A DNA stretch of 64,000 nt from Methylomicrobium sp. wino1 (GTDB taxonomy: Bacteria > Pseudomonadota > Gammaproteobacteria > Methylococcales > Methylomonadaceae). The notes under the pieces are model-generated. The model searched no databases. It saw nothing but the letters and a program-made list of their open reading frames with translations, and had not been told where the DNA came from. The stretch lies in assembly GCF_003932755.1 (NCBI RefSeq), contig NZ_CP024202.1, forward strand, positions 558,001-622,000, read 5' to 3'. Positions 3,706-49,966 of the stretch are shown here, one piece after another; position 1 is the stretch's first letter; every line of letters starts with the position of its first letter. Made by a program: the position numbers and the translations under genes.

Positions 3706-5775
3706 TATCATTGGACGATAAAAATCGACTTCCTCGAAAATGGCTAATGTAGTGCCATAAAATGCCTCTGGTCTCTTGCGCCGCCTCGCGGTTTGCGCTA
3801 AGTTGACGGCATGTTTATTCGACGCACTCAAACCCGCTGCAGAGCCACCGGCGAACCTCATGTAACTTATCGACTGGTTCATTCCGAACGCATCGGTCAC
3901 CAAGTTAAACAGGTCACACTGCTGAATCTAGGCCGGCATTTTTCGATCCAGCCCACTTTTTGGCCGGCCTTATGTCGCCGTGTCCTGGAGTTGTTATCGT
4001 TGCAAACGAGTTTATTCGATCCGGACTTACCTCAGACGGTGGCCTTGGCCGCGGAACATATCGCCGCGCGCTTGTTGGCGGAAAGCGCGCCATTGCTCGT
4101 GAGACTTTCGTTGATCCCGACCCCAGCCATGCCTGTCGTCAATGACGCCACACAGGCGGCTTCGGAATCGGTTTCGTCGGAGCCACCGGAGTCCCGGACT
4201 CCGGCTGAAATATATACCATTGATGCGAACTCGCTGGAATTAGCGCGGCCCCGTTCGATCGGTGTCGAGCAGGTCGGTTTGGCGGCGATGGACTTGGTCA
4301 ATTTTACCTCGCTGCTGATGGGATTGGGTCTGTCCGGGCCGCTACGGGCGGCGGTTGTGGGTTCGATCATCGGGCGCATGGCAGCGCCGGCTTCTGAGGC
4401 CGCCACGCACCGTTGGCTAGGTCAGCGCAGCGGTTTGGGCGAGCTGTTGGACGTCGATTTCGAACGCATGAAGCCAATCACGTTGTATCGGGCTTCAGAC
4501 GCTTTGATGAAGCACCGGGACGTCATCGAACGCACGCTGTTCAACCGGGTGCACGATCTGTTCGGTTTCGAGACCACGGTTACCTTATACGACTTGACCA
4601 ATACGTATTTCGAAGGCACGGCGGCCGCCAATCCGAAAGCGCAACGGGGCCGCTCCAAAGAAAAGCGCCGCGACTGTCCACTGGTCACGCTGGGCTTGGT
4701 GCTCGACGGCAGCGGTTTTGTCCGCCGTTCCCAGACCTTCGACGGCAATGTCTCGGAAGGCAAGACCTTGGCCGGGATGCTCAAAGACCTCGGCGCACCG
4801 GCCGGGGCCTTGGTGATTATGGATGCCGGCATCGCCACGGAAGCCAATCTGACTTGGCTGCGCGAACAGGGTTACCGCTATCTGGTCGTCAGCCGCGAAC
4901 GCACTCGGCAATTCGAAGCCGAAACCGCCATTCCGATCAAAACCGCCGCCGGCTCCGCCGTCCACATCCAGCGCGTCGACGACAGCGAACACCAAGAAGT
5001 GCGCTTGTATTGCTACTCCGAACAGCGCGAACAAAAAGAGCGCGGCATCAATCAACGCCTGTGCGAGCGCTTCGAAGCCGGATTACAAAAAATCGCCGAC
5101 GGCCTCCACAAGCCTCGCGCCGAAAAGCGCCTCGACAAACTGCAACAGCGCATCGGTCGGCTCCAAGAAAAATACCAAGGTATCGGCCAGCATTACACGA
5201 TCGAACTGACCCCGGATGAGACCGGCGAAAAAGTCATCGGCCTGACCTGGTCGAAACAGCCCAAAGCCGGCAGCCGCCTGAGCCATCCCGGCGTCTATTG
5301 CCTCCGCAGTAACGAAACGCAATGGGATGCTGAAAAACTGTGGCGCACCTATATCATGCTCACCGACCTGGAAGCGGTGTTTCGTAGCCTTAAATCCGAA
5401 CTCGGGCTTCGTCCGGTCTACCATCACAAAGAAGTCCGCGTCGACGGCCATTTGTTCATCACCGTCCTGGCCTATCAGTTCGTGCAAATCATCCGCCGGC
5501 AACTGAAAGAACACGGCATTCACGACCGCTGGTCCACACTGCGCGACATCTTGTCCGTTCAGCAGCGCGTCACCGCCTCCTTCCGGCGCGCCGACGGCGG
5601 TATTCTGCACATCCGCAAAAGCACACAACCGGAAGCGGAATTAGCACGGATTTACCACACATTGGGCCTTGACCCGCTTCCTGGAGGTGTACAAAAAACT
5701 CTACTATAGATCGAATTACGCTTAAAAAACGCCTATGTAGTGCCTTACGGTCATTTATGATCCAATAAAATATTG
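3706..5775 (+). mobile_element. IS1634-type insertion sequence inside the array
   Basis: A single long transposase gene with about 100 bp of AT-rich flank on the left and 70 bp on the right. The ends are uncertain. An imperfect inverted match (ATTGGACGATAAA on the left against ATTGGATCATAAA reading inward from the right) suggests ends near 3706 and 5775. A direct repeat TGTAGTGCC occurs at 3748 and 5736 and may be part of the termini instead. The insertion separates cassette 2 from the core site at 5795. Confidence 0.6.
3811..5709 (+). CDS. IS1634-family (IS4-like DDE) transposase
   Basis: 632 residues, full length for IS1634-group transposases. DDE residues can be read as Asp in LYDLTNTYFEG, Asp in VIMDAGIATE, and Glu in the C-terminal segment around FRSLKSELGLRPVYHHK. 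The protein cuts and pastes its own element by a hydrolytic mechanism. The frame is intact, so the element may still be active. Very long open frames on other strands here are shadows produced by its GC-rich codon use. Confidence 0.9.
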   Translation: MFIRRTQTRCRATGEPHVTYRLVHSERIGHQVKQVTLLNLGRHFSIQPTFWPALCRRVLELLSLQTSLFDPDLPQTVALAAEHIAARLLAESAPLLVRLSLIPTPAMPVVNDATQAASESVSSEPPESRTPAEIYTIDANSLELARPRSIGVEQVGLAAMDLVNFTSLLMGLGLSGPLRAAVVGSIIGRMAAPASEAATHRWLGQRSGLGELLDVDFERMKPITLYRASDALMKHRDVIERTLFNRVHDLFGFETTVTLYDLTNTYFEGTAAANPKAQRGRSKEKRRDCPLVTLGLVLDGSGFVRRSQTFDGNVSEGKTLAGMLKDLGAPAGALVIMDAGIATEANLTWLREQGYRYLVVSRERTRQFEAETAIPIKTAAGSAVHIQRVDDSEHQEVRLYCYSEQREQKERGINQRLCERFEAGLQKIADGLHKPRAEKRLDKLQQRIGRLQEKYQGIGQHYTIELTPDETGEKVIGLTWSKQPKAGSRLSHPGVYCLRSNETQWDAEKLWRTYIMLTDLEAVFRSLKSELGLRPVYHHKEVRVDGHLFITVLAYQFVQIIRRQLKEHGIHDRWSTLRDILSVQQRVTASFRRADGGILHIRKSTQPEAELARIYHTLGLDPLPGGVQKTLL

Positions 5776-17105: not shown

Positions 17106-18050
17106 ATGAACGATGCATTGGTCAGTTGCGAATGCTTACAACAGAATCCGGATGTTTCCGATCGAATCATCCTGGATGCCACCTACTTTTTGCCCCGTCA
17201 GCAACGTAATGCCCCAAAGGAATTCGATGCAGCGCATATCCCAGGCGCGCAATTTTTCGACATCGATAACATCGCCGATTCGACCTGTCCCCTGCCCCAT
17301 ACGCTGCCCGATGCCGTTCAGTTTGCCGAACAAGCGGGGCAATTGGGAATCGGCAATGATACGTGGGTGATCGTTTACGACAACAATCATTTTTTTGCGT
17401 CCGCCCGGGCCTGGTGGATGTTTCGAGTGTTCGGGCACGATAAGGTCAGTGTCTTGAACGGCGGCCTGACCCGGTGGCAACAGCTTCGGTTTCCGGTTAC
17501 GTCGGACTTCAGCCGGCCCTCGCCAAAACGCTTCGACGCGGTGTTTCGTCCCGAACTGTTTGCGGATTTGAAGCAAATGAAACTTATCCAACAACGAGGC
17601 AGCAAACAAATTCTGGATGCCCGCTCCGAGGACAGTTTCAACGCTCGGCGACCGCTACACGATGCCGGTCTTCTGCCGGGTCATATTCCGGGCAGCCTCA
17701 ATATTCCTTATAGAAGGTTATTTGCACCGGATGACTTCACGCTATTGCCGGACGAGCGGTTGCGGCGGATCTTTTTCGACGCCGGAGTGGATTTAACCAA
17801 GCCCATCGTCACCAGTTGCGGCTCGGGTGTTTCGGCGGCACTGCTACTGTTGGCGCTGTATCGGATCGGTCTGACGGATATCCCGATGTTCGACGGTTCA
17901 TGGGCACAATGGGGCCGGCAAGCGGATTTGCCGCGGCAAACGGCATTGAGCGCTTCGCCTTCCAAGTCGGCGCTGGTTAGCAAGGCTTCAAACCGTTGTT
18001 TTCGGGTCCAGTCTTTAGGACGTTGTTGCATAGTCTTTGTCGTTGAATGA
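17106..18050 (+). CDS. sseA: 3-mercaptopyruvate/thiosulfate sulfurtransferase with foreign C-terminal tail
   Basis: Two rhodanese domains. The first has DATYFLPRQQRNAPKEFDAAH and DIDNIADSTCPLPH; the second has the catalytic loop SCGSGVSA (Cys at about residue 238), the SseA-type CG(S/T)GVTA. It transfers sulfur from mercaptopyruvate or thiosulfate to thiols. I prefer the ATG at 17106 over that at 17013. After WGRQADLPRQT the last ~35 residues come from the opposite strand of an IS remnant, so the tail is foreign. The core of about 280 residues is complete and likely active. Confidence 0.85.
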   Translation: MNDALVSCECLQQNPDVSDRIILDATYFLPRQQRNAPKEFDAAHIPGAQFFDIDNIADSTCPLPHTLPDAVQFAEQAGQLGIGNDTWVIVYDNNHFFASARAWWMFRVFGHDKVSVLNGGLTRWQQLRFPVTSDFSRPSPKRFDAVFRPELFADLKQMKLIQQRGSKQILDARSEDSFNARRPLHDAGLLPGHIPGSLNIPYRRLFAPDDFTLLPDERLRRIFFDAGVDLTKPIVTSCGSGVSAALLLLALYRIGLTDIPMFDGSWAQWGRQADLPRQTALSASPSKSALVSKASNRCFRVQSLGRCCIVFVVE

Positions 18051-18235
18051 GATCGTGTCCGTTTAAGCCAGCCTTTCAGAGTAAACACGCTGATATTCAA
18101 TTCATCGGCAATCGATTGAATGCTTTTATCACCGCGTTGCAATACTTTGCTAAGGGCTTGCTCTTTAAATTCTTCACTATAACGGGTTTGCATTTTTTAC
18201 CTCTATAAAATTTTAGAGGCGACAACTAGCCTGAC
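17940..18235 (-). mobile_element. IS3-type element remnant: left end plus OrfA N-terminus
   Basis: On the minus strand an element end reading TGTCAGGCTAGTTGTCGCC (18217-18235) is followed by an ATG at 18193. The gene encodes RYSEEFKEQALSKVLQRGDK with a helix-turn-helix SIQSIADELNISVFTLKGWLK, and then TMQQRPKDWTRKQRFEALL. The coding part stops at about 17945, where it joins the sulfurtransferase end. The right end and OrfB are missing. Confidence 0.65.
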
Positions 18236-39826: not shown

Positions 39827-41053
39827 TCAAACCCGCTTGAAAATCAATGAAGTATTGATGCCGCCGAAGGCGAAGTTATTACTCATCAAATAGTCGCATT
39901 CGAGCCTACGCACAGACCCTTGAATATAATCGAGTTCCGCACATCTGGGATCGACAGCATCCAGATTCGCGGTCGGATGAAACCAGCCTTCGTTCATCAT
40001 CCGGACCGCTACCCAGGCTTCGATCGAGCCGCAAGCGCCGAGCGTATGGCCGGTATAACTTTTCATCGAGCTGATCGGAATCTTATTGCCCAACACGGCC
40101 GCCGTTGCATGACTTTCGGCGATATCGCCCAGCTCGGTCGCGGTGCCGTGCGCGCTGACATAGCCGATTGCCGAAGTATCCAGGCCCGAATCTTGGAGCG
40201 CCAATTGCATCGCGACCTGCATGCTGGCGCTGTCCGGTTGCGTGACATGCAAACCGTCGCAGTTGGTGCCGAAACCGACGATCTCGGCATGAATCGTCGC
40301 ACCCCGGCTCAAGGCATGCTCGCGTTCTTCCAGAATGAAGGTGCCGCCGCCTTCGCCGATCACTAGCCCGTCGCGGTCACGGTCGAACGGGCGCGGTGAT
40401 TTGTCCGGTTCGTCGTTGCGCAGACTGGTCGCGAACAAGGTATCGAATACCGCCGCTTGCGAGGCGGACAATTCGTCACTTCCGCCGGCGATCATCACGG
40501 TTTGCTGTCCGTGTTTGATCGCTTCGTAGGCATAACCGATGCCCTGGCTGCTCGATGTACAGGCGCTCGAGGTCGGAATGATGCGGCCGTTGATGCCGAA
40601 GTGCAGGCTGATATTGACCGGACAGGTATGCCCCATCATGCGGATATAGGATGTCGCGTTCAAGCCGCCCTTGTCGAAATTCAGCAGCATCTTGGTGAAA
40701 TCGATCAAGCCGTCGAAGCTACCGGACGAACTGCCGTAAGAAACGCCGGTGCGGCCGCTTTTCAAAACCGGGTCATCCAATAATCCTGCATCTTGCAAGG
40801 CCAATTCGGTGGCATAGGTCGCCAGCATCGCGACTCGGCCCATGCCCCGTACTTGCTTGCGCGAATAATGCGCGGGCCGCGCGAAATCGACCGGCCCGCC
40901 GAGCCGGGTGTTCAAGCCGTTGTATTTATCCCAATCGTCCATCCGACGAATGCCGGTATTTTGCGCTTTCAAATTACCGGCAACCGTCGTCCAATCGTTG
41001 CCGATCGGCGTGATCGCGGCCATGCCGGTTACCACGACGCGTTTCATCAGCAC
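39827..41053 (-). CDS. Aryl-polyene-type beta-ketoacyl-ACP synthase II
   Basis: 408 residues. KAS fold with all catalytic residues: Cys165 in SSACTSSS, and His in SAHGTATELGD and YTGHTLGACGS. It elongates an acyl chain on a carrier protein. The order FAD-enzyme, KS, dehydratase, ketoreductase, KS is that of aryl polyene core operons (ApeO-P-Q-R). Its start overlaps the end of the ketoreductase gene by seven bases. The role in polyene elongation is inference from gene order. Confidence 0.8.
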   Translation of the reverse strand: MLMKRVVVTGMAAITPIGNDWTTVAGNLKAQNTGIRRMDDWDKYNGLNTRLGGPVDFARPAHYSRKQVRGMGRVAMLATYATELALQDAGLLDDPVLKSGRTGVSYGSSSGSFDGLIDFTKMLLNFDKGGLNATSYIRMMGHTCPVNISLHFGINGRIIPTSSACTSSSQGIGYAYEAIKHGQQTVMIAGGSDELSASQAAVFDTLFATSLRNDEPDKSPRPFDRDRDGLVIGEGGGTFILEEREHALSRGATIHAEIVGFGTNCDGLHVTQPDSASMQVAMQLALQDSGLDTSAIGYVSAHGTATELGDIAESHATAAVLGNKIPISSMKSYTGHTLGACGSIEAWVAVRMMNEGWFHPTANLDAVDPRCAELDYIQGSVRRLECDYLMSNNFAFGGINTSLIFKRV

Positions 41054-41772
41054 AGCCCTCCGTTGACCGAAATCACCTGCCGGGTGATATACGCGGCTTC
41101 CTCGGACAATAAAAACCCGACGGTGGCCGCGACTTCATCGGCCGAGCCGACCCGGCGCATCGGAATCATTTTTTTGATTTCCTCGAGCGGCAACTCGTCG
41201 AGCATTTCGGTATCGATCAAGCCCGGCGCGACGCAATTAACCGTGATATTGCGTTTGGCAAGTTCCAATGCCAACGCCTTGGTCGCTCCGATGATTCCGG
41301 CCTTCGCGGCGCTGTAATTGACCTGACCGCGATTGCCGATCAGCCCCGAAACGGACGATAATGTCACGATGCGGCCTGGCTTGCGCCGCCGGATCATCGG
41401 CATGATCAGCGGGTTCAAGACATTATAAAAACCGTCCAGATTGGTATGTATGACGCTGTCCCATTCCTCGCCGGTCAAGGCCGGAAAAGCGTTGTCAGCG
41501 TTCACGCCGGCATTGCAGACCACGCCGTAATAAGCGCCGTGTTCGTCGATATCTTGCTCGATCGCCGCACTGCATTGCTTGCGGTCCGCCAGATCGAATT
41601 GCAAAATACGCGCCGTGCGGCCGATTCCCTCGATTTCCCGAGCGACTTGCTCGGCCTCGCTTCGGCGGCTGCGGCAATGCACGACCACATCGTAACCCTT
41701 GCGCGCCAGATACAAAGCGATTGCCTTGCCGATGCCCCGGCTGGAGCCCGTCACTAAAACTGTTTCATTCAT
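41047..41772 (-). CDS. 3-ketoacyl-ACP reductase (FabG-like) of the polyene operon
   Basis: 241 residues. Classical SDR features: GSSRGIG (8-14), CNAGVNADN, the catalytic Ser in SSVSGLIG and YSAAK, and a C-terminal ITRQVISVNGG. It would reduce 3-ketoacyl intermediates with NADPH. It overlaps the downstream KS gene and is 183 bp from the dehydratase gene, with a family E-like repeat in the gap. Confidence 0.85.
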   Translation of the reverse strand: MNETVLVTGSSRGIGKAIALYLARKGYDVVVHCRSRRSEAEQVAREIEGIGRTARILQFDLADRKQCSAAIEQDIDEHGAYYGVVCNAGVNADNAFPALTGEEWDSVIHTNLDGFYNVLNPLIMPMIRRRKPGRIVTLSSVSGLIGNRGQVNYSAAKAGIIGATKALALELAKRNITVNCVAPGLIDTEMLDELPLEEIKKMIPMRRVGSADEVAATVGFLLSEEAAYITRQVISVNGGLC

Positions 41773-41954
41773 GCTGTTTCTTTAGTAAGTGTCCAAAATT
41801 TATTTCCCGATTTGGCTAGTATCAGGTAACGCTGGAAGAAGTGTGCGCGGCATGGACGCCGCGCCCAAGCCTATAGGGATATATTCACGGCGTCTTCTGG
41901 AAGCGTTACCTGATACTGGTCGATAAAACCGGGTAATTATTTTGAAACAATTAC

Positions 41955-42395
41955 TTAGTTTGTGATGACCCGATTGATTGCCGTATCGGGTTGATAAACA
42001 CTCAGTTTAGCCGAAATTTCCACGCCGTCGCCGTCCACGCGGCAATCGAAAACGCCCAAGCCTTGATCCTGTATGAGGCGCTTGACCGTCACGGTCAGCA
42101 CTGCCCCGGCGGTAAGCCGGCTCACATTGCAATGATACCGCCGTGTGCCCAATAAAAACCCGGGATTGAGCGGTTTTCCGACCAAGCGGCACATCAAACC
42201 GCCATGCGCCGCCACCGTTTGCGCCATGTATTCGATACCCACCCAAGCCGGAATGCCTGTGTCGTCGCCGAACAGACCGTCGCCGCGCACGGTTACTTGC
42301 GCGCTCATCGACTCGTCGTCGTAGGTCAGCACATGATCCAACAGCATCATTTTGCCGCCATGCGGCAATAGTTGCTCTATTGAATACACGATCAT
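41955..42395 (-). CDS. Hot-dog-fold 3-hydroxyacyl-ACP dehydratase (ApeP type)
   Basis: 146 residues. The sequence LLPHGGKMMLLDHV carries the catalytic His, and the central helix WVGIEYMAQTVAAHGG is the FabA/FabZ-like hot-dog signature with the acidic residue. It should dehydrate 3-hydroxyacyl chains and leave double bonds, giving the conjugated chain. It overlaps the preceding KS gene by four bases. Confidence 0.8.
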   Translation of the reverse strand: MIVYSIEQLLPHGGKMMLLDHVLTYDDESMSAQVTVRGDGLFGDDTGIPAWVGIEYMAQTVAAHGGLMCRLVGKPLNPGFLLGTRRYHCNVSRLTAGAVLTVTVKRLIQDQGLGVFDCRVDGDGVEISAKLSVYQPDTAINRVITN

Positions 42396-43573
42396 ACGCG
42401 CGACACGACGATCGAGATGTTATTACCGCCGAAAGCGAAGGAATTGCTCTGACAATGTTCGATGCGCCTGCCCAGTCGTTGACCGGTCTTGACCAGATTC
42501 AATGCCGGCAAGGCCTCATCGAATTCGTCGTCATTGCTATTCGGCGGCAACGAGCCCCCTTCATCATCGCTATTCAGCAGCAGCCAACACAGACCCAGCT
42601 CGAGTGCGCCGGCCGCGCCTAAGGCGTGTCCAGTCATGCCTTTGGTCGAGCTAGCCGCGACCGAACGGCCGAACACTTCGGCAACCGCCGCGCTTTCCAT
42701 TGCATCGTTCAACGGCGTGGCCGTGCCATGTAGATTAATATAATCTATTTGCACGGCGGTCATCTCAGCCTCTTTCAATGCCGTTTGCATCGCAGTCACC
42801 ACGGCCGTGCCGCCGGGGTCGGGCGCGGAAAAATGATACGCGTCGCTGCTGGCGCCGATTCCTGTGAGTCTGACGGGGCCTTCGTCCCGGCTCAAGACGA
42901 ACAAGGCCGCGGCTTCCGATAAATTGATGCCGTCACGGCGCCGTCCGAAAGGCTTACACAAACCTGACGATACCGACTCCAATGCCGCAAAACCGTTCAC
43001 GGTAAAACGGCACAGACTATCCGCGCCCCCGACGATGACCGCATCGCAAATATCCAGCTCGATCAATCTTCGGGCCGAAACGAAAGCCCTGCCGCTCGAG
43101 GAACAGGCCGTTGATACCGAATAAGCCGGGCCTTTCAAATCGAGCCGATGAGCCAAAAAATCGGCTCCGCCGGCCAACTGTTGTTGCTTGTAATGAAATC
43201 CGGACGGTTTTTCGAGACCGCCGGCCACCGCGGCAATCGCCAGTTCGGTATTTCTGACGCCGGAAGTGCTGGTGCCGATAACCACGCCGATTCGATCCGC
43301 GCGGTATTTCCGTTTGATGCGCTCGACGCCCGCCTGAATTTGACTCAAGGCCGCGAGTAACAAGCGATTGTTTTTGCAATCGTAAACGCTGTATCGTTTT
43401 TCGATTTCGGGCAGTTCGGCACGAATCTCACCGACATAAAGCGGTTTACCCGGCGAATATTCATCGGTCTTGATCAAACCGGAACGGTCTCCCGCCAGCA
43501 GTCTCGACAACATTTCGGAACCATTGCTACCGGCCGCCGATAGAATGCCGAGATCATTGAGAAACAAGGTCAT
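42392..43573 (-). CDS. Second ketosynthase of the polyene operon
   Basis: 393 residues, KAS I/II fold. Cys157 in STACSSSG and His in LHGTATPLND and TGHALGAAG are all present, so unlike chain-length factors it keeps the full active site. Only four bases separate it from the flavoenzyme gene upstream. In known aryl polyene clusters two ketosynthases flank the dehydratase and reductase genes, as here. Confidence 0.8.
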   Translation of the reverse strand: MTLFLNDLGILSAAGSNGSEMLSRLLAGDRSGLIKTDEYSPGKPLYVGEIRAELPEIEKRYSVYDCKNNRLLLAALSQIQAGVERIKRKYRADRIGVVIGTSTSGVRNTELAIAAVAGGLEKPSGFHYKQQQLAGGADFLAHRLDLKGPAYSVSTACSSSGRAFVSARRLIELDICDAVIVGGADSLCRFTVNGFAALESVSSGLCKPFGRRRDGINLSEAAALFVLSRDEGPVRLTGIGASSDAYHFSAPDPGGTAVVTAMQTALKEAEMTAVQIDYINLHGTATPLNDAMESAAVAEVFGRSVAASSTKGMTGHALGAAGALELGLCWLLLNSDDEGGSLPPNSNDDEFDEALPALNLVKTGQRLGRRIEHCQSNSFAFGGNNISIVVSRV

Positions 43574-43577
43574 TTTC

Positions 43578-44813
43578 TCAAGGCTCGCGGCACAATTCGA
43601 CCAAGGTCTTCAACCGGGGGCCTGAGTTTTTGACATACGGATTGTTTTCATCCCAAACATAGCCGGCCAGAATCGAACAAATCATTGCTTTGATATTGGG
43701 CTGTTGCTGTTGATAAAGCACTACATCCTGCAAGCCGCCGTCATACCATGAGCTGACGAAGGTGCGGAAAGTATCGACGCCTTTTTGCAAGGGTTCGGAA
43801 AATTCCTGTTGCCAATCGACCACCATGCCGCCGAGCTGCCGGTCCAATATCTCGGCGGCGAGACTCGCCGATTTCATCGCGATCGTGACGCCCGAGGAAA
43901 AGACCGGATCGAGAAACTCGCCGGCATTGCCCAATAGCGCGTAGCCTTTGCCATGCAAACGCTTGACGTTGGCGCTGTAACCACCGATGCTGTTGACCGG
44001 CGTGTCGAACACCGCATGATGCAGCAGCGCCGACAAGCCCGGCTCTTCATCGACGAATCGGCGCAGTACGGTTTGCGGCTCGCGTTCCGGAACCTTGAGA
44101 ATCTTCGCTTCGCCGACCACGCCGAGACTGCAACGTCCGTTGCTGAACGGAATCAACCAATACCAAACATCGGTCAATTCGGGATGCACGATGATGCGGA
44201 TTTTGTTGCGATCGTAGCGCGGATCGTCAATCCCGTCTTCGATATGCGTGAACACGGCCTGCCGCACCGGAAACCCGGACGGTTTTTCCAAATCCAACAA
44301 ACGCGGCAACACTCGTCCGAAACCACTGGCATCGAGCACGAAATCGGCAGTCATGCGGTAGCGCTCATCGCTGTCCCTATCCTTGACCGCCAACACCGCT
44401 TGCTCGCCGCTGAAGTCGGCCTCGACGACTTCCTGACGCCAGCGTATGTCCACGCCCATACGTTGCGCCTCGGCGGCTAGCAACGCATCGAAGCGGTCGC
44501 GTTGCACTTGATAGGTCGAATCGAAGCCGGATGTGAATTTGTCGGCAAACCAGAATTCACAGTGTTTATCTTGAAATAAAAACGCCGCGCCGTCCTTCAA
44601 TTGAAAACCGGCATTACGCACGGCATCGAGCATGCCGGCCTGTTCGATGAATTCCATACATTGCGGCAGCAAGCTTTCGCCGATGCTGAAGCGCGGAAAA
44701 GCATCTCGCTCCAAGATAACGGTACGATATCCTTTGTTATTGAGCAATGCCGCGGCGATGCTGCCCGCAGGGCCCGCTCCGATAATCACGATATTGCCTT
44801 TTTCAACCCTCAT
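43578..44813 (-). CDS. Flavin-dependent halogenase-fold oxidoreductase
   Basis: 411 residues. FAD-binding GAGPAGS (12-18), then RFSIGESLLPQ, and Lys73 in FQLKDGAAFLF, which I align with the lysine of tryptophan/phenol halogenases. The WYWLIP motif (217-222) fits WxWxIP, and FLDPVFSSGVTIAMKSASLAAEIL fits PltA-like pyrrole-PCP halogenases. Hydroxylases of the same fold share most of these motifs, so either halogenation or oxygenation is possible. It is the first gene of the leftward polyene operon. Confidence 0.75.
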   Translation of the reverse strand: MRVEKGNIVIIGAGPAGSIAAALLNNKGYRTVILERDAFPRFSIGESLLPQCMEFIEQAGMLDAVRNAGFQLKDGAAFLFQDKHCEFWFADKFTSGFDSTYQVQRDRFDALLAAEAQRMGVDIRWRQEVVEADFSGEQAVLAVKDRDSDERYRMTADFVLDASGFGRVLPRLLDLEKPSGFPVRQAVFTHIEDGIDDPRYDRNKIRIIVHPELTDVWYWLIPFSNGRCSLGVVGEAKILKVPEREPQTVLRRFVDEEPGLSALLHHAVFDTPVNSIGGYSANVKRLHGKGYALLGNAGEFLDPVFSSGVTIAMKSASLAAEILDRQLGGMVVDWQQEFSEPLQKGVDTFRTFVSSWYDGGLQDVVLYQQQQPNIKAMICSILAGYVWDENNPYVKNSGPRLKTLVELCREP

Positions 44814-44959
44814 GCGAACCCGCCTGTTTTGCCATTGCTAACCTAATGTGGATGTTTATAAATAATTCATGCCAAATAAGACGGAGGTTGTAACCCATAC
44901 GCGTCGAGCTAAAAACAGCCAACCCGCATCCCCTATTTCCTAAGTTGCTATTAAAGTAT

Positions 44960-45038
44960 GTGGCCCGTATCCAGCGTAGCGAAATACGGGAATGGCGTGG
45001 CGCCGAGCTTCCCGGATGGAGCGCAGCGCAATCCGGGA
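44960..45038. repeat. Family B hairpin repeat
   Basis: GGCCCGTATCCAGCGTAGCG and GAAATACGGGAATGG form the left half; CCCGGATGGAGCGCAGCG forms the right half. It is truncated at the right compared with the copy at 1067. Confidence 0.6.
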
Positions 45039-45098
45039 AACGCTGCTTGGTCAATGTGGCCTCGATGCCATTTATTGTAGCTTGACATTTTCGGCCTC

Positions 45099-45176
45099 GA
45101 AATCGCGATCTGGGGATCGCTCCCACGGTGCATCAATCACCCGCCGTGGGAGCGACGCCTTCGTCGCGATTTTCGA
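45099..45176. repeat. Family A hairpin repeat
   Basis: GAAATCGCGATCTGGGGATCG and TCCCACGG mirror CCGTGGGAGCGACG and TCGTCGCGATTTTCG; 78 bp. This is the most symmetrical copy in the window. Confidence 0.7.
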
Positions 45177-45428
45177 AGCCGCCGACGCTCAACTTCCACA
45201 GTTTATTTTGAAGTCCTAAGTCCTGAATTCAATGAATTTGCCTCTACACGAAACTCGAAGCGAATCAGAAAGTTAATTTTAGCCACATCCCTGGCTTGAT
45301 GCGTATGGTTAAATAACCCGCCCCGCGCGATGTTCAGTACCTAATCCCAAAGGGTATCGCCCTTTTCCGTGACTATGCCTGCCCTAATCGGCTATCATTT
45401 AAACGACAAATTATACCTTACCTGAGTC

Positions 45429-45668
45429 ATGAAAAAGAAACTGCGCGACTTTATCTTTCAAGAGCTCGTTTTCATCGCCGAGCCGAATCGATTCGGCGAT
45501 GACGACGATTTGCTCGAAGCGGGACTGGACAGCATGGGCATCATGCGCTTAATCATGTACATCGAAAACGAATTCGGTGTGACCCTACCCGATACCGAAA
45601 TCGAACCGGACAACGTGCAATCCTTTAATACATTGGAACGCTGGATCTTAAGGCATAAAAACGCATGA
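45429..45668 (+). CDS. Free-standing acyl/peptidyl carrier protein
   Basis: 79 residues. The phosphopantetheine site is Ser35 in LEAGLDSMGIMRLI. The rest (YIENEFGVTLPDTEIEPDNVQ) fits a carrier-protein fold. It would hold the amino acid or acyl intermediate as a thioester. Its stop codon overlaps the start of the next gene (ATGA), so it is co-transcribed with it. Confidence 0.85.
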   Translation: MKKKLRDFIFQELVFIAEPNRFGDDDDLLEAGLDSMGIMRLIMYIENEFGVTLPDTEIEPDNVQSFNTLERWILRHKNA

Positions 45669-46996
45669 GCGTCGATAAGTCCGCTATTTTGGAAAGGCTG
45701 AATCCGGCCGACAGTTTCACATTGGCGATGGATGAAGAAATCCGCCGCGACGGCTTAGCCGGCAGTTTGGCGTGTTACGGACTTGAACTCGCCAATATTC
45801 CGGACATCGACGCATTGCAACAACGGATCGACGAATTTGGCCGACGTTTTCCGGTAGCCCGTGCCAGCCTGAGGCAAATCGGCAAGCGTTTCTATTGGTG
45901 CAAGCGTTCCGATCCGCCCGACTTATTTTTTCGTCATCATTGCCCGGCCGGCGCAAATGAAGCGGAATTCCGGCACGCTACTGTCGATCGAATCATGAAC
46001 GAGAAACAGCCTCGGGAGAGCATCGCGCCGCTCGAGTTTCATCTCTTGACCGGGCCGTCCGAAACCGTTTTTGTGATGCGCTGGCTGCATCCTTTTTGCG
46101 ATGCGCGCGGCGCGGATCTGATCATCAAATATGTGTGTACCGCCGACCCCGAACAACGCCAACGATTCGGCCACCCCGAAACCGGTCCGCTGGTATTCGA
46201 ACAACTACGAAAATACCGCTGGTGGCAAAAAATTACGCTTCTGCTGAAAGGCAAGCGCTATATCGATAGGCTGGATAGACTAAGCAGCGTTCAGCCGTTG
46301 CGCCACGAACAGACGCCGCATCGCCTCGAGTTTGCGATTCGAAGACTCAGCGAGGAACAAACTGAACGGGTCGTCAAATTGGCCAGGCAACATGTCGGCC
46401 TAACCGGCACCAGCCTCTATTACATAGGGTGCCTGATGCGCGCCCTCGACAAATGGCATCCAGACAGTCCGGGCGAGGCTTATTGCGTGCCTTATGCATT
46501 TAACTTGCGCAAACAACGCGCCTTATCGCCGGTCAGCGGTAATCATCTCAGCGCACTGTTCGCACAGACACCTCGAGGAGTCGTCAAGGACCGGCAAAAA
46601 CTGTTTGAACATCTGAAACAACAAAACACCCAGGTGATTCGTCAACAAGAAGACTATGCCTTTCTACCCCTGATGTGGGCCGGCAGTTGGCTGTCGCTGG
46701 CCGAATACGGCAAGGTCTTGCGCCTTTCGTACGGCTCCGGTCAAGAGCGCAGCTCGTTTTGGTTTTCCGATATCGGCCGCCTGGATCTTCCTGCGGACAG
46801 TTTCCCCGGCGCCGAAATCACCGGCGTATTTCATGCCTGCCAGGTCACGTCGCCGCCGTCGCTGGCTTTTCTGAACTGTATTTTCCGCAATCGTTTGACC
46901 TTAAGCTATAACTATGTCGAACCGATAGCCGATGCCGAAACTATCGATGAATTGCATCGATTGATGTTGGCGGAACTGCTGGGAGAGACGGATTGA
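45665..46996 (+). CDS. Condensation-domain-like acyltransferase
   Basis: 443 residues. RWLHPFCDARGADL holds the HxxxD-type active site (His142, Asp146, Gly149) of the condensation/chloramphenicol acetyltransferase superfamily, with the first His of HHxxxDG replaced by Leu. The later parts PYAFNLRKQRALSPVSGNHLSALF and SSFWFSDIGRLDLP are compatible with that fold. It could transfer an acyl group from a carrier protein to an alcohol or amine. It overlaps the carrier-protein gene. Confidence 0.7.
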   Translation: MSVDKSAILERLNPADSFTLAMDEEIRRDGLAGSLACYGLELANIPDIDALQQRIDEFGRRFPVARASLRQIGKRFYWCKRSDPPDLFFRHHCPAGANEAEFRHATVDRIMNEKQPRESIAPLEFHLLTGPSETVFVMRWLHPFCDARGADLIIKYVCTADPEQRQRFGHPETGPLVFEQLRKYRWWQKITLLLKGKRYIDRLDRLSSVQPLRHEQTPHRLEFAIRRLSEEQTERVVKLARQHVGLTGTSLYYIGCLMRALDKWHPDSPGEAYCVPYAFNLRKQRALSPVSGNHLSALFAQTPRGVVKDRQKLFEHLKQQNTQVIRQQEDYAFLPLMWAGSWLSLAEYGKVLRLSYGSGQERSSFWFSDIGRLDLPADSFPGAEITGVFHACQVTSPPSLAFLNCIFRNRLTLSYNYVEPIADAETIDELHRLMLAELLGETD

Positions 46997-47261
46997 ATCG
47001 TTTTAAGGATTTGGTCGTAAATAACTTCCTTATTTTAGGGAGGGTTCGGTTGCTCGACTGGCAGGTGTCGACGGCAGGGCAGATTTTTGCTCCTCGGCAA
47101 TTGCTCCCGCATTGCCCTAATACACGCCATCCATGGCAATTAGTCGCCGCCGTCAAGCCTACAAGGACGTTTTCACGGCGTCTTGCCAAGCGAGTTACCG
47201 TACCCTCAACAAAGCTCTTAGTTCCAGAACGTTATTTATTACGAAATCCTAATTCTCGATC
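46997..47261. repeat. Family E-like repeat between two operon genes
   Basis: 265 bp without a gene. CGACGGCAGGGCAGATTTTTGCTCC, CACGCCATCCATGGC and GTCAAGCCTACAAGGACG-type strings match segments near 34656, 37655, 41850 and 56880. The insertion lengthens an otherwise tight operon. Confidence 0.5.
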
Positions 47262-48707
47262 ATGCCCTTACTGACATCATTCAACCTACAATGCCGAAAC
47301 GCACCGGATCGCCCGGCGTTGATTGAAGGCGAACGTCGAATGAGTTACCGCGAAGTGATGCTTAGCACTGAACGCCTTGCCGCCCATTTAGCCGCATGGC
47401 TCGAGCCTGGCTCTCGCGTCGCGCTGGCCATGGATCGAGGTATCGATGCGGTCATAGCGATTCTGTCGGTCCTACGTTGCGACGCGTGCTACATCCCCCT
47501 GGACATCAAAAATCCGGCTCGACGCTTGCGCTTTATCGTCGACAACGCTGTCGTCCACTGCATCATCGGCCGCGGAAACCCTCCCGAGTGGCTCGACACG
47601 CCGGCGCTTTGGCTCGATATCGACCGACTGCCCGAGTCTGCCCAATCGTACTATCCTCCCGCAGCCACCGACCCCGAAGCCTTGGCGGCAATTCTGTACA
47701 CTTCGGGTTCGACCGGCACGCCGAAAGGCGTCGCGCTGAGTCATCGCGCATTGCATAATTTCGCCGATTGGGCGGCGCGCACGTTCAAGCTCAACGCCGA
47801 CGACCGTATTGCATCGTTGGCGCCGTTTCATTTCGACTTATCCGTGTTCGATCTATTCAGCAGTCTGAGCGCCGGCGCTAGCATTAATTTCGTGCCGGCC
47901 GGCTTGACCTTGTCGCCCAGCCGACTGACGGCCTGGCTGCGTGAACAGCGCATCACCGTGTTTTACACGGTACCGTCTTTGCTCGGCTTCATCGTGCTAA
48001 AGGGCGGATTAACCGAACAGCCGTTACCGGATTTAACTACGCTATTGTTCGCCGGCGAAGTTTTTCCGACGCCTCAATTGAAAAAACTCTGCGAACTGCT
48101 GCCCGATACCGATTTTTACAATCTCTACGGCCCGACCGAAACCAATGTCTGTTGTTATTGGCCGGTCGATCGCAAACGCCTCGCCAACGAACAGCCGATA
48201 CCGATCGGCCATCCGGCTTGCGGCTCGGAACTGAAGATCGACACAGAAACCGGCAAATTGCTGGTAAAAAGCGCCAACAATCTATCGGGCTACTGGCAGC
48301 AAGGCCAATTAACAGAAGCACTGGAAGACGGCGGCTATTACAGGACCGGCGATAAAGTCTCATTGAACGAGCGCGGCGAATATTGCTATCACGGCCGTCT
48401 CGACCGCATGCTCAAATGTTCGGGCTACCGGGTAGAGCCGGCAGAAATCGAAGCGCTGCTCATGCAATGCCCGGAAGTCGCTCACTGCGCGGTGGTCGGT
48501 ATTTCGGACAGCGCCAGCGGACAACGCCCCGCCGCCGCTCTGGTTTTGCATCCCGGCGGCCAATTGAATGCAATCGTCAAAACAGTCAAACAAGCGCTAC
48601 CGGTCTACATGCAGCCGTGCCGATTTAGTGTGATGGATACTTTGCCTCTGCTAGACAATGGCAAGACCGATTATCAAATCTTACAACGCCAACTGGAGCG
48701 ATACTGA
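47262..48707 (+). CDS. Stand-alone amino-acid adenylating enzyme (prolyl-AMP-ligase-like)
   Basis: 481 residues. The adenylation cores are readable: A3 YTSGSTGTPKGVALSH, A4 HFDLSVFDLF, A5 YGPTETNV, A7 GGYYRTGDK, A8 GRLDRMLKCSGYRVEPAEIE, and A10 NGKTDYQIL with the catalytic Lys. HFDLSVFDLF and the single-domain form resemble L-prolyl-AMP ligases of pyrrole pathways (PltF, RedM, PigI). It should load an amino acid onto the carrier protein at 45429. Specificity for proline is inference. Confidence 0.75.
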   Translation: MPLLTSFNLQCRNAPDRPALIEGERRMSYREVMLSTERLAAHLAAWLEPGSRVALAMDRGIDAVIAILSVLRCDACYIPLDIKNPARRLRFIVDNAVVHCIIGRGNPPEWLDTPALWLDIDRLPESAQSYYPPAATDPEALAAILYTSGSTGTPKGVALSHRALHNFADWAARTFKLNADDRIASLAPFHFDLSVFDLFSSLSAGASINFVPAGLTLSPSRLTAWLREQRITVFYTVPSLLGFIVLKGGLTEQPLPDLTTLLFAGEVFPTPQLKKLCELLPDTDFYNLYGPTETNVCCYWPVDRKRLANEQPIPIGHPACGSELKIDTETGKLLVKSANNLSGYWQQGQLTEALEDGGYYRTGDKVSLNERGEYCYHGRLDRMLKCSGYRVEPAEIEALLMQCPEVAHCAVVGISDSASGQRPAAALVLHPGGQLNAIVKTVKQALPVYMQPCRFSVMDTLPLLDNGKTDYQILQRQLERY

Positions 48708-49784
48708 ATGGATATCGGCAATCTACCTGCCGCCGGCGGAAACCAAGCCGCACGGGCACGTTTTCGTCATTGCGCCGATATCGGCCTATTGAAACATGCG
48801 GTGCCGCAAAGCCACGGCGGTCACGGCAACCATTTTGCTGACCTTATGCAGGCCCATGAACAACTCGGCAAAGCCTCCCAGGACCCCGGCTTATTGTTAT
48901 CGATCAACGCTCATCTGTGGGGCGCCGTTTTCCCGCTGCTGAACTACGGCAATGCCGAACAGCAGGCGGCTTATCTAAAGCACCTGCTCGACGGCAACCG
49001 TATCGGCGGCCATGCGATTACCGAACCGCAAGCCGGCTCCGATCTTAATGCGTTGACAATGACCGCAGAACAAACCGGCGCCGAATTTATACTAAACGGG
49101 CATAAACGCTATATTACCAATACGCCGATCGCCGATTTGCTGGTCGTCTATGCCCGTATCGGCAGTCAATTGTCCGCCTTCATCGTGCATGCCGACGACC
49201 CCGGCGCCGATTTTCTCGATACGCCTCAAGTCTCCGGCTGCAAAAACGCCACGATGGGCGATGTGCTTCTTAACGATTGCCGAATTCCGCTTAACCGGCA
49301 ACTGGGTAAGACCGGCGCCGGCAACATGATAATTCAGCAGGCGTTGGAGTTGGAGCGAGCCTTTATTTTTGCCGGCATCTGCGGCGTGATGGAGCGGCAA
49401 TTGGAAAGCGTAATTCGGTTCAGCCGCGAACGCAGAGTCAACGGTGCGTATCTAGGCAAAAATCAGGCGATTAGTCATAAAATTGCCGAGATGAAAACCC
49501 GGCTGGACACGATCCGGCTTTGGGTGAACGAATGCGCGCGCCTGAAAGATCAAAAGCAACGCATCACGTTGGCCAGCGCGCAGACCAAGCTCTTCGCCGC
49601 CGAAGCCTTTCTGCAATCGAGCCTGGACGCGGCGCATATTTTCGGCGCCTACGGCTTGCTCGAAGGCGGTCAACAACTCGAACGAATCCAGGACGCCCTC
49701 GCCAGCCGGCTATTCTCCGGCTCGTCCGAAATCCAAAAAAACATCATCGCGGCTTTACTGGGTACGGGCGACGGCTATCGATAA
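48708..49784 (+). CDS. Acyl-CoA-dehydrogenase-fold enzyme (prolyl-PCP dehydrogenase-like)
   Basis: 358 residues, starting directly at the adenylating gene's stop. FAD-binding ACAD motifs: GHAITEPQAGSDLNAL, NGHKRYITNTPIADLLVVYA, LGKNQAISHKIAEMKTRLD and RLFSGSSEIQKNIIA. The middle (GHKRYITNTPIADLL) is close to PltE-type enzymes, which oxidise prolyl-S-PCP to pyrrolyl-S-PCP. The N-terminal helical domain seems slightly shortened. Together with the carrier protein and ligase it forms a three-gene set for a 2-pyrrolyl starter. Confidence 0.75.
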   Translation: MDIGNLPAAGGNQAARARFRHCADIGLLKHAVPQSHGGHGNHFADLMQAHEQLGKASQDPGLLLSINAHLWGAVFPLLNYGNAEQQAAYLKHLLDGNRIGGHAITEPQAGSDLNALTMTAEQTGAEFILNGHKRYITNTPIADLLVVYARIGSQLSAFIVHADDPGADFLDTPQVSGCKNATMGDVLLNDCRIPLNRQLGKTGAGNMIIQQALELERAFIFAGICGVMERQLESVIRFSRERRVNGAYLGKNQAISHKIAEMKTRLDTIRLWVNECARLKDQKQRITLASAQTKLFAAEAFLQSSLDAAHIFGAYGLLEGGQQLERIQDALASRLFSGSSEIQKNIIAALLGTGDGYR

Positions 49785-49885: not shown

Positions 49886-49966
49886 GTAGGGTGCGCATCG
49901 CGCACCGTTCCACGGCAACGAACCCGACGATAGGCGCCCGACCCAGGTGCGCGATGCGCACCCTAC
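49886..49966. repeat. Perfect inverted repeat (GTAGGGTGCGCATCGCGCACC type)
   Basis: 21-bp arms (49886-49906 and 49946-49966), reading GTAGGGTGCGCATCGCGC and its complement, flank a 39-base spacer. Located 100 bp after the last pigment gene, it could act as a bidirectional terminator, though it is probably a dispersed repeat. Confidence 0.8.

Follow-up and report, generated by a model that had tools for sequence, protein, structure and literature searches.

A proline-activating cassette beside the aryl-polyene core of Methylomicrobium sp. wino1 as a candidate exchangeable cap module

The locus and its question

The question raised by this locus is what a proline-activating gene set does next to the ketosynthase genes of an aryl polyene (APE). 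Both occur in a stretch of 64,000 nucleotides (the window) of Methylomicrobium sp. wino1, at positions 558,001 to 622,000 of contig NZ_CP024202.1 (G000:C1:558001-622000), in a genome consisting of one contig of 5.06 Mb. The window carries two divergent operons, a leftward one with ketosynthase (KS), dehydratase (DH) and ketoreductase (KR) genes and a flavoenzyme, and a rightward one, the proline cassette, with a carrier protein, a condensation-fold enzyme, an adenylating enzyme and an acyl-CoA dehydrogenase (ACAD). A first-pass annotation of the window had proposed that a starter derived from an amino acid might replace the aromatic one. The genes of the whole chromosome and of its relatives led us to predict, with a probability of about 0.5, that the cassette serves a split aryl-polyene lipid pathway as an exchangeable module for acyl attachment (a cap module), and not as its starter set.

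The proline cassette

The rightward operon (45429-49784, plus strand) consisted of four genes, preceded by an intergenic region:

44814..45428, no strand, divergent intergenic region, presumed from its position to hold the promoters of both operons
45429..45668, plus strand, carrier protein with a GLDSMG motif (PF00550, 43.1 bits, cut-off 20.8; Ser35 in 57/57 homologues)
45665..46996, plus strand, 443-aa condensation-fold enzyme, hereafter C, with an HxxxD motif (His142 and Asp146 in 60/60; model pLDDT, the predicted local distance difference test, 92.6; best fold matches AzeD and condensation domains)
47262..48707, plus strand, stand-alone L-proline adenylating enzyme (code DLFYLALVCK; PF00501, 232.2 bits, cut-off 29.9)
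48708..49784, plus strand, predicted prolyl-carrier dehydrogenase of ACAD fold (nearest PDB entry AnaB, 4irn, 243 bits; Glu214 and Glu216 in 69/69)

The start of the C gene overlapped the carrier stop. The active-site residues checked were kept among homologues, which were distinct, stop-free sequences with at least 85% coverage and identity floors of 45% for the adenylating enzyme, 35% for C and 50% for the ACAD. An open reading frame (ORF) at 46993-47274 was rejected as a carrier gene, as its sequence is not carrier-like and the true carrier lies at 45429-45668.

Ten pocket residues of the adenylating enzyme were located via the A4, A5 and A10 motifs, at what we take to be the GrsA reference positions. 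The code obtained (LFYLALVC between its first and last letters) exactly matched the consensus for stand-alone L-proline enzymes, L(L/F)YLALVC, given in PMC3874040. The identical ten-letter code was found in 42 of 66 homologues, with one more gapped at the Lys and 23 differing at position 299 and/or 322. Two L-prolyl-carrier ligases were among its PDB matches, 6o6e with 243 bits and 7thn with 211; the chains outscoring them matched the enzyme in two stretches. Loading of L-proline on the carrier by this enzyme is well supported by its sequence; a clear specificity for another substrate, which the first-pass annotation had named as evidence against its proposal, was not seen in the code.

The ACAD contained three Pfam Acyl-CoA_dh domains, and its two best NCBIfam models were PigA (287 bits, cut-off 500) and RedW (275 bits, cut-off 650), placing it below both equivalog cut-offs. 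From its family, it would oxidize the prolyl-carrier to pyrroline or pyrrole; four-electron oxidation would give the pyrrole, and a two-electron, AnaB-like outcome may leave pyrroline as the product. With an exact L-proline code and an ACAD nearest to prolyl-carrier dehydrogenases, the carrier, adenylating enzyme and PltE-type ACAD held up as a set of the proline-to-pyrrole type. A more distant carrier, adenylating enzyme and ACAD set (27%, 35-36% and 36% identity) was seen in G124 and G144 (L080, L081) and may represent another pathway to pyrroline or pyrrole.

The extra condensation-like enzyme noted in the first pass was also present, as C. In the scan of window proteins it matched no Pfam family, and a Pfam scan of 35 C proteins returned three weak, unrelated families only. 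Its model and the residue check gave it the fold and the HxxxD motif of the nonribosomal peptide synthetase (NRPS) condensation superfamily, and a profile alignment with an NRPS condensation domain of the same genome was weak (E 0.27).

An aryl-polyene pathway dispersed over the chromosome

The leftward operon (39827-44813, minus strand) is transcribed in the order flavoenzyme, ApeO-like KS, ApeP-like DH, KR and ApeR-like KS:

39827..41053, minus strand, ApeR-like ketosynthase, KS_O (NF006587, 688 bits, cut-off 470; best PDB matches 4ewg and 7f27; Cys/His/His kept in 42/42)
41047..41772, minus strand, FabG/ApeQ-like ketoreductase (NF004200, 406 bits, cut-off 273)
41955..42395, minus strand, ApeP-like dehydratase (PF22817, 72.9 bits, cut-off 27; His kept in 33/33)
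42392..43573, minus strand, ApeO-like ketosynthase, KS_R (best PDB match 6qsp_A, 330 bits; NF006618, 479 bits, cut-off 407)
43578..44813, minus strand, halogenase-fold flavoenzyme of the APE core (3nix, 377 bits; PF04820 Trp_halogenase, 82.9 bits, cut-off 21; Lys73 and WxWxIP in 29/29)

All nine named genes of the two operons, the KS-DH-KR-KS set with its flavoenzyme included, were intact ORFs and lay at or near where they had first been placed. The best PDB matches identified the two KSs as ApeO-type and ApeR-type, the entries 6qsp_A and 4ewg/7f27 being so described in PMC8358021. A match to the ApeR-like KS in another genome (G061:C2:165891-167111) contained a single in-frame TAA.

The active-site Lys and WxWxIP are motifs of flavin-dependent halogenases, and the flavoenzyme has both. 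It was rejected as a PltA-like pyrrole chlorinase because 3nix scored 377 bits against 109 for PltA and because the enzyme, at 66% identity, was also found in the cores of four genomes carrying neither kind of cassette (G028, G053, G106 and G107). It belongs to the APE core and not to the pyrrole set.

Other components expected of an APE system lay outside the window. The region 1210294-1218918 encoded a chain-length factor, two acyl carrier proteins (ACPs), a small membrane protein that we take to be COG4648-like, a fused ApeH-ApeI-like protein, an aromatic-lyase family enzyme, a thioesterase and a CrtI-like flavoenzyme. The chain-length factor, encoded there as the partner of the ApeO-like KS, is ApeC-type (G000:C1:1210294-1211013; PF13723, 219 bits, cut-off 25), and the two ACPs at 1.211 Mb matched PF00550. 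The lyase gene (1215490-1216884; PF00221, 558.5 bits), an ammonia-lyase and the sole PF00221 match in the genome, adjoined that of the fused protein, whose ligase part came closest to the model for 4-coumarate-CoA ligase (101 bits, below its cut-off of 335) and whose ApeI-like part matched PF22818 (56 bits, cut-off 28.5). As a family-wide scan for ApeH-ApeI, PF22818 was too unspecific, since at E 0.001 it matched 208 of the 237 genomes and in 107 it scored above the cut-off. Farther on, at 1226587-1237622, were two likely lipoproteins (judged by eye), a second COG4648-like membrane protein, a LolA-like carrier (LolA_3, 40.3 bits, cut-off 23), an MMPL exporter (47.6 bits, cut-off 20.5; at 1.230 Mb, where the MMPL query had its sole match in the genome) and another halogenase-fold enzyme. 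These loci are about 0.6 Mb from the window on the same chromosome.

The genome had four PF00109 KS genes in total, two of them in the window. Of the other two, one adjoined a FabA-like gene and one adjoined ACP and FabG-like genes; given these fatty-acid gene contexts, the window KSs likely serve the ammonia-lyase locus. In G169, a single cluster of 33 kb (G169:C18:80279-112808) united counterparts of the distant genes with the cassette and KS core of the window type, and in G174 the cassette, core and exporter lay inside 15 kb. Since its remaining genes occur elsewhere and are clustered together in G169, the window is one piece of an aryl-polyene pathway dispersed over this genome. The earlier remark that no aromatic-starter gene or transporter was in sight is, as far as the PF00221 and MMPL searches tell, correct for the window but misleading for the organism, whose chromosome holds both. 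The conclusion drawn from it, that the starter may come from an amino acid for lack of an aromatic one, was reached because only the window was considered, and this argument is rejected given the ammonia-lyase, ApeH-ApeI-like, ACP, ApeC-type and export genes elsewhere and given that relatives with an ammonia-lyase of their own have exchanged the cassette.

Conservation and exchange of the cassette among relatives

A scan with the adenylating enzyme, covering close relatives, found 57 loci, all in methanotroph groups of Methylococcales or in unplaced bins. The nearest isolate was Methylotuvimicrobium buryatense 5G (89%), one of the cultured methanotrophs among the cassette-bearing relatives, and one unplaced gammaproteobacterial bin reached 93%; these matches suggest Methylotuvimicrobium as the genus of the window. 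Within the genus, the enzyme was found at 87% or more in five of six genomes, the sixth being 79% complete, and the nine genes had an identical order in four other genomes, at 87-99% protein identity. The two operons were also neighbors in other genera, so that the idea that they might not co-occur, raised in the first-pass annotation as a ground for doubt, is rejected.

The wider comparison covered 237 genomes of the family, with gene maps drawn for selected ones. The ACAD was found in 75 genomes (including G016 and G124, matched at 37-38% only), C in 72 and both in 70. An alternative cassette, FAD30-ACPx-Cx-FADx-ALx, carried a counterpart of C, here called Cx, and an acyl-CoA-ligase-like ALx. 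C and Cx were homologous over 403 columns (E 1e-28) with the HxxxD motifs aligned. The NRPS condensation domain mentioned above matched Cx at E 7e-6, and PF00668 matched it at E 4e-5 (22.9 bits, under the cut-off of 30.6). Cx was present in 16 of the 237 genomes, after a weak match of G162 on its own C gene was removed from 17 matches and the partial sequence of G023 was kept.

In the tree of ApeR-like KSs, the window clade comprised 29 rows (support 100/97), of which 20 were from genomes with the proline cassette, eight with Cx, none with both and one with neither (G170, whose contig begins inside the core). The starred branches of this tree force at least three changes in the kind of cassette. 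With G104 added, which was joined through its likeness to G103 and not via the tree, the counts were 21 C, eight Cx, none with both and one with neither (Fisher 1.5e-6; Fisher values here and below are without correction for kinship). The carrier and C genes were divergent to the core in 16 of the 20 proline-cassette genomes of the clade; the cassette was away from the core in G103 and G193, and the contig was too short to tell in G160 and G198. Gaps in single genomes were the flavoenzyme and ApeO-like gene, not found at the locus in G069, the adenylating and ACAD genes, on a separate contig in G195, and the ACAD match, not found in G196.

In six relatives (G173, G191, G166, G202, G092 and G101), the slot beside the flavoenzyme was filled by the alternative cassette, the small ACPx gene not being called in G166 and G202. 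In the two remaining clade members with Cx the locus was truncated, the contig of G066 ending within the core and that of G165 starting 1.2 kb before the flavoenzyme. Relatives with the alternative cassette in the slot retained the ammonia-lyase. Six genomes outside the clade held both C and Cx, none of them with an ApeR-like KS. The alternative cassette was seen at L087:9958-15513 in G151, which carries both kinds, and at L176 in G173.

The cassettes and one MMPL exporter subtype were found largely in the same genomes: C or Cx in 82 of 237, the subtype in 80 and both in 76. The subtype set was reached by removing six matches at E ~1e-41 (G037, G042, G106, G107, G129 and G223) from 86.

Cap, starter or separate product

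According to the cap prediction, the leftward operon would be the elongation core of a Methylotuvimicrobium split aryl-polyene lipid pathway and, judging from gene content, would build the polyene on an aromatic starter together with the ACPs, chain-length factor, ApeH-ApeI-like protein and ammonia-lyase. Once the adenylating enzyme has placed L-proline on the carrier, as its sequence supports well, the ACAD would convert it to a pyrrolinyl- or pyrrolyl-carrier, and C would transfer this acyl unit to the polyene or to its anchor. The resulting pyrrole-capped aryl-polyene lipid would then pass to the dedicated MMPL/LolA export set.

The cassette might instead supply the starter, the pyrrolyl-carrier priming the window KSs and C handing the unit to an ACP or KS, so that a pyrrolyl polyene would be made instead of or beside an aryl polyene. 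Pyrrolyl-carrier units prime ketosynthases in the pyoluteorin and prodiginine pathways, and the usual position of the carrier and C genes next to the KS core would suit such a role. However, the genome retains the ammonia-lyase and the ApeH-ApeI-like protein, and all three of the cassette lineages looked at had an ApeH-like ligase: the genus itself, G151 and G110 (a 439-aa AMP-binding protein, 28% like that of the window genome), the latter two having no ammonia-lyase. The aromatic system needs no cassette, since 48 of the 78 genomes with an ApeR-like KS and ammonia-lyase have neither kind. Because relatives swap the set for another in the same slot, the pyrrole resembles a replaceable attachment more than the beginning of the pigment chain. 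Both kinds of cassette bring a condensation-fold enzyme, for which a carrier-bound starter would not obviously have a need. The ApeR residues Tyr135, Phe118 and Phe202, which lie against the aryl group according to PMC8358021, were identical in 43 of 43 KS rows regardless of cassette. We regard the starter role as unlikely.

Several observations weigh against the cap. The unchanged KS pocket is a weak test, because a pyrrole ring is aromatic too and a starter role is compatible with it. The exporter subtype follows the cassettes, which was taken as a point for a cap, yet the contrast among the 78 genomes (the subtype is in 28 of the 30 cassette-bearing genomes and in 0 of the other 48) partly tracks clade boundaries. 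The ammonia-lyase occurred in 24 of 72 genomes with C and in 59 of 165 without it, giving no association (Fisher 0.77), and the 48 C-bearing genomes in which it was not found also speak for a starter. The best NCBIfam models for the ammonia-lyase scored below their cut-offs, and its substrate-selectivity pair is Phe-His, which makes its supply of an aromatic starter tentative. Profile searches of the PDB with C and Cx returned no solved structure at E up to 1, and while the C model matched condensation-fold structures, the top match, AzeD, is named a dehydratase and not an acyltransferase. C could accordingly be a condensation-fold dehydratase or similar enzyme, AzeD-like, with either the polyene or the proline product on the carrier as its substrate, in which case the cassette would give a free or released pyrroline or pyrrole acid or a modified head group; we consider this quite improbable. 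Least probable is an unrelated pyrrole compound as the product of the cassette, which would then adjoin the APE core by chance or through shared regulation. Its divergent, separate operon, its location away from the core in two genomes and the 27 of 72 C-bearing genomes without a KS_O match would fit such a product, but the co-occurrence of C or Cx with the polyene-exporter subtype in 76 genomes would not, and in the mapped genomes without KS_O (G151, G145 and G152) this exporter adjoins genes for other APE-like KSs and chain-length factors. On balance, the cap module is the interpretation retained here.

Other features of the window

A 40-nt repeat, with copies 80% alike and a look of repetitive extragenic palindromic elements, was present in a gap within each operon (41857-41896 and 47145-47184), the first copy inside an inverted repeat (41818-41917). 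Inverted repeats in intergenic regions flanked the rightward operon (45100-45172 and 49886-49966). The ORFs 3811-5709 and 17708-18193 appeared transposase-like by eye.

Relation to known systems and significance

Aryl polyenes occur very widely among bacteria. The system described here resembles the APE clusters of E. coli CFT073, Xenorhabdus doucetiae and Acinetobacter baumannii in its ApeO, ApeR, ApeP, ApeI and ApeC types, KR, two ACPs, ApeH-like ligase, thioesterase, LolA-like protein and MMPL exporter. It differs from them in being spread over three chromosomal places, in its proline cassette with its own condensation-fold enzyme, in the flavoenzyme of the core and in the fusion of the ApeH- and ApeI-like parts. 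Pyrrolyl-carrier sets (PltL/PltF/PltE for pyoluteorin; PigG/PigI/PigA and RedO/RedM/RedW for prodiginines) likewise have a stand-alone carrier, a stand-alone L-proline adenylating enzyme with the consensus code and a prolyl-carrier-type ACAD, whereas here the ACAD falls under the PigA and RedW cut-offs, the fourth gene is condensation-fold and an APE core adjoins. AnaB, the closest structure to the ACAD, is the anatoxin prolyl-ACP dehydrogenase, which stops at pyrroline. The flexirubin and xanthomonadin pathways also combine an ammonia-lyase and a halogenase-fold flavoenzyme, here nearest to 3nix, with a polyene core, but the present system differs by its proline cassette, and no dialkylresorcinol genes were noticed, no search being aimed at them. 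C has the fold and HxxxD motif in common with AzeD and NRPS condensation domains, while a direct profile match in sequence was not found.

Aryl-polyene clusters are reported as dominant in Methylococcaceae (PMC11964084, in whose main text neither pyrrole nor Methylotuvimicrobium is mentioned). A literature search over titles and the beginnings of abstracts, with few subscription papers covered, found no description of an aryl-polyene cluster that includes a module for proline or pyrrole.

The exchangeable cassette is a more interesting result than the starter question. Somewhat more tentatively than the cap itself, methanotroph aryl polyenes could be seen as a modular lipid family, with a conserved core and export set and with exchangeable caps swapped between genera more than once at the same slot, one cap being a proline-derived pyrrole and another coming from a different acid. 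Each cap cassette is proposed to comprise a carrier, an activating ligase, a flavin or acyl dehydrogenase and a condensation-fold transferase. According to PMC8253772, the molecule anchoring the polyene of E. coli has yet to be identified, and a replaceable cassette that brings along a carrier and a condensation-fold enzyme, tracking one exporter subtype, offers a handle on the step of polyene attachment. If the prediction is true, proline or pyrrole chemistry would be added to that of aryl polyenes.

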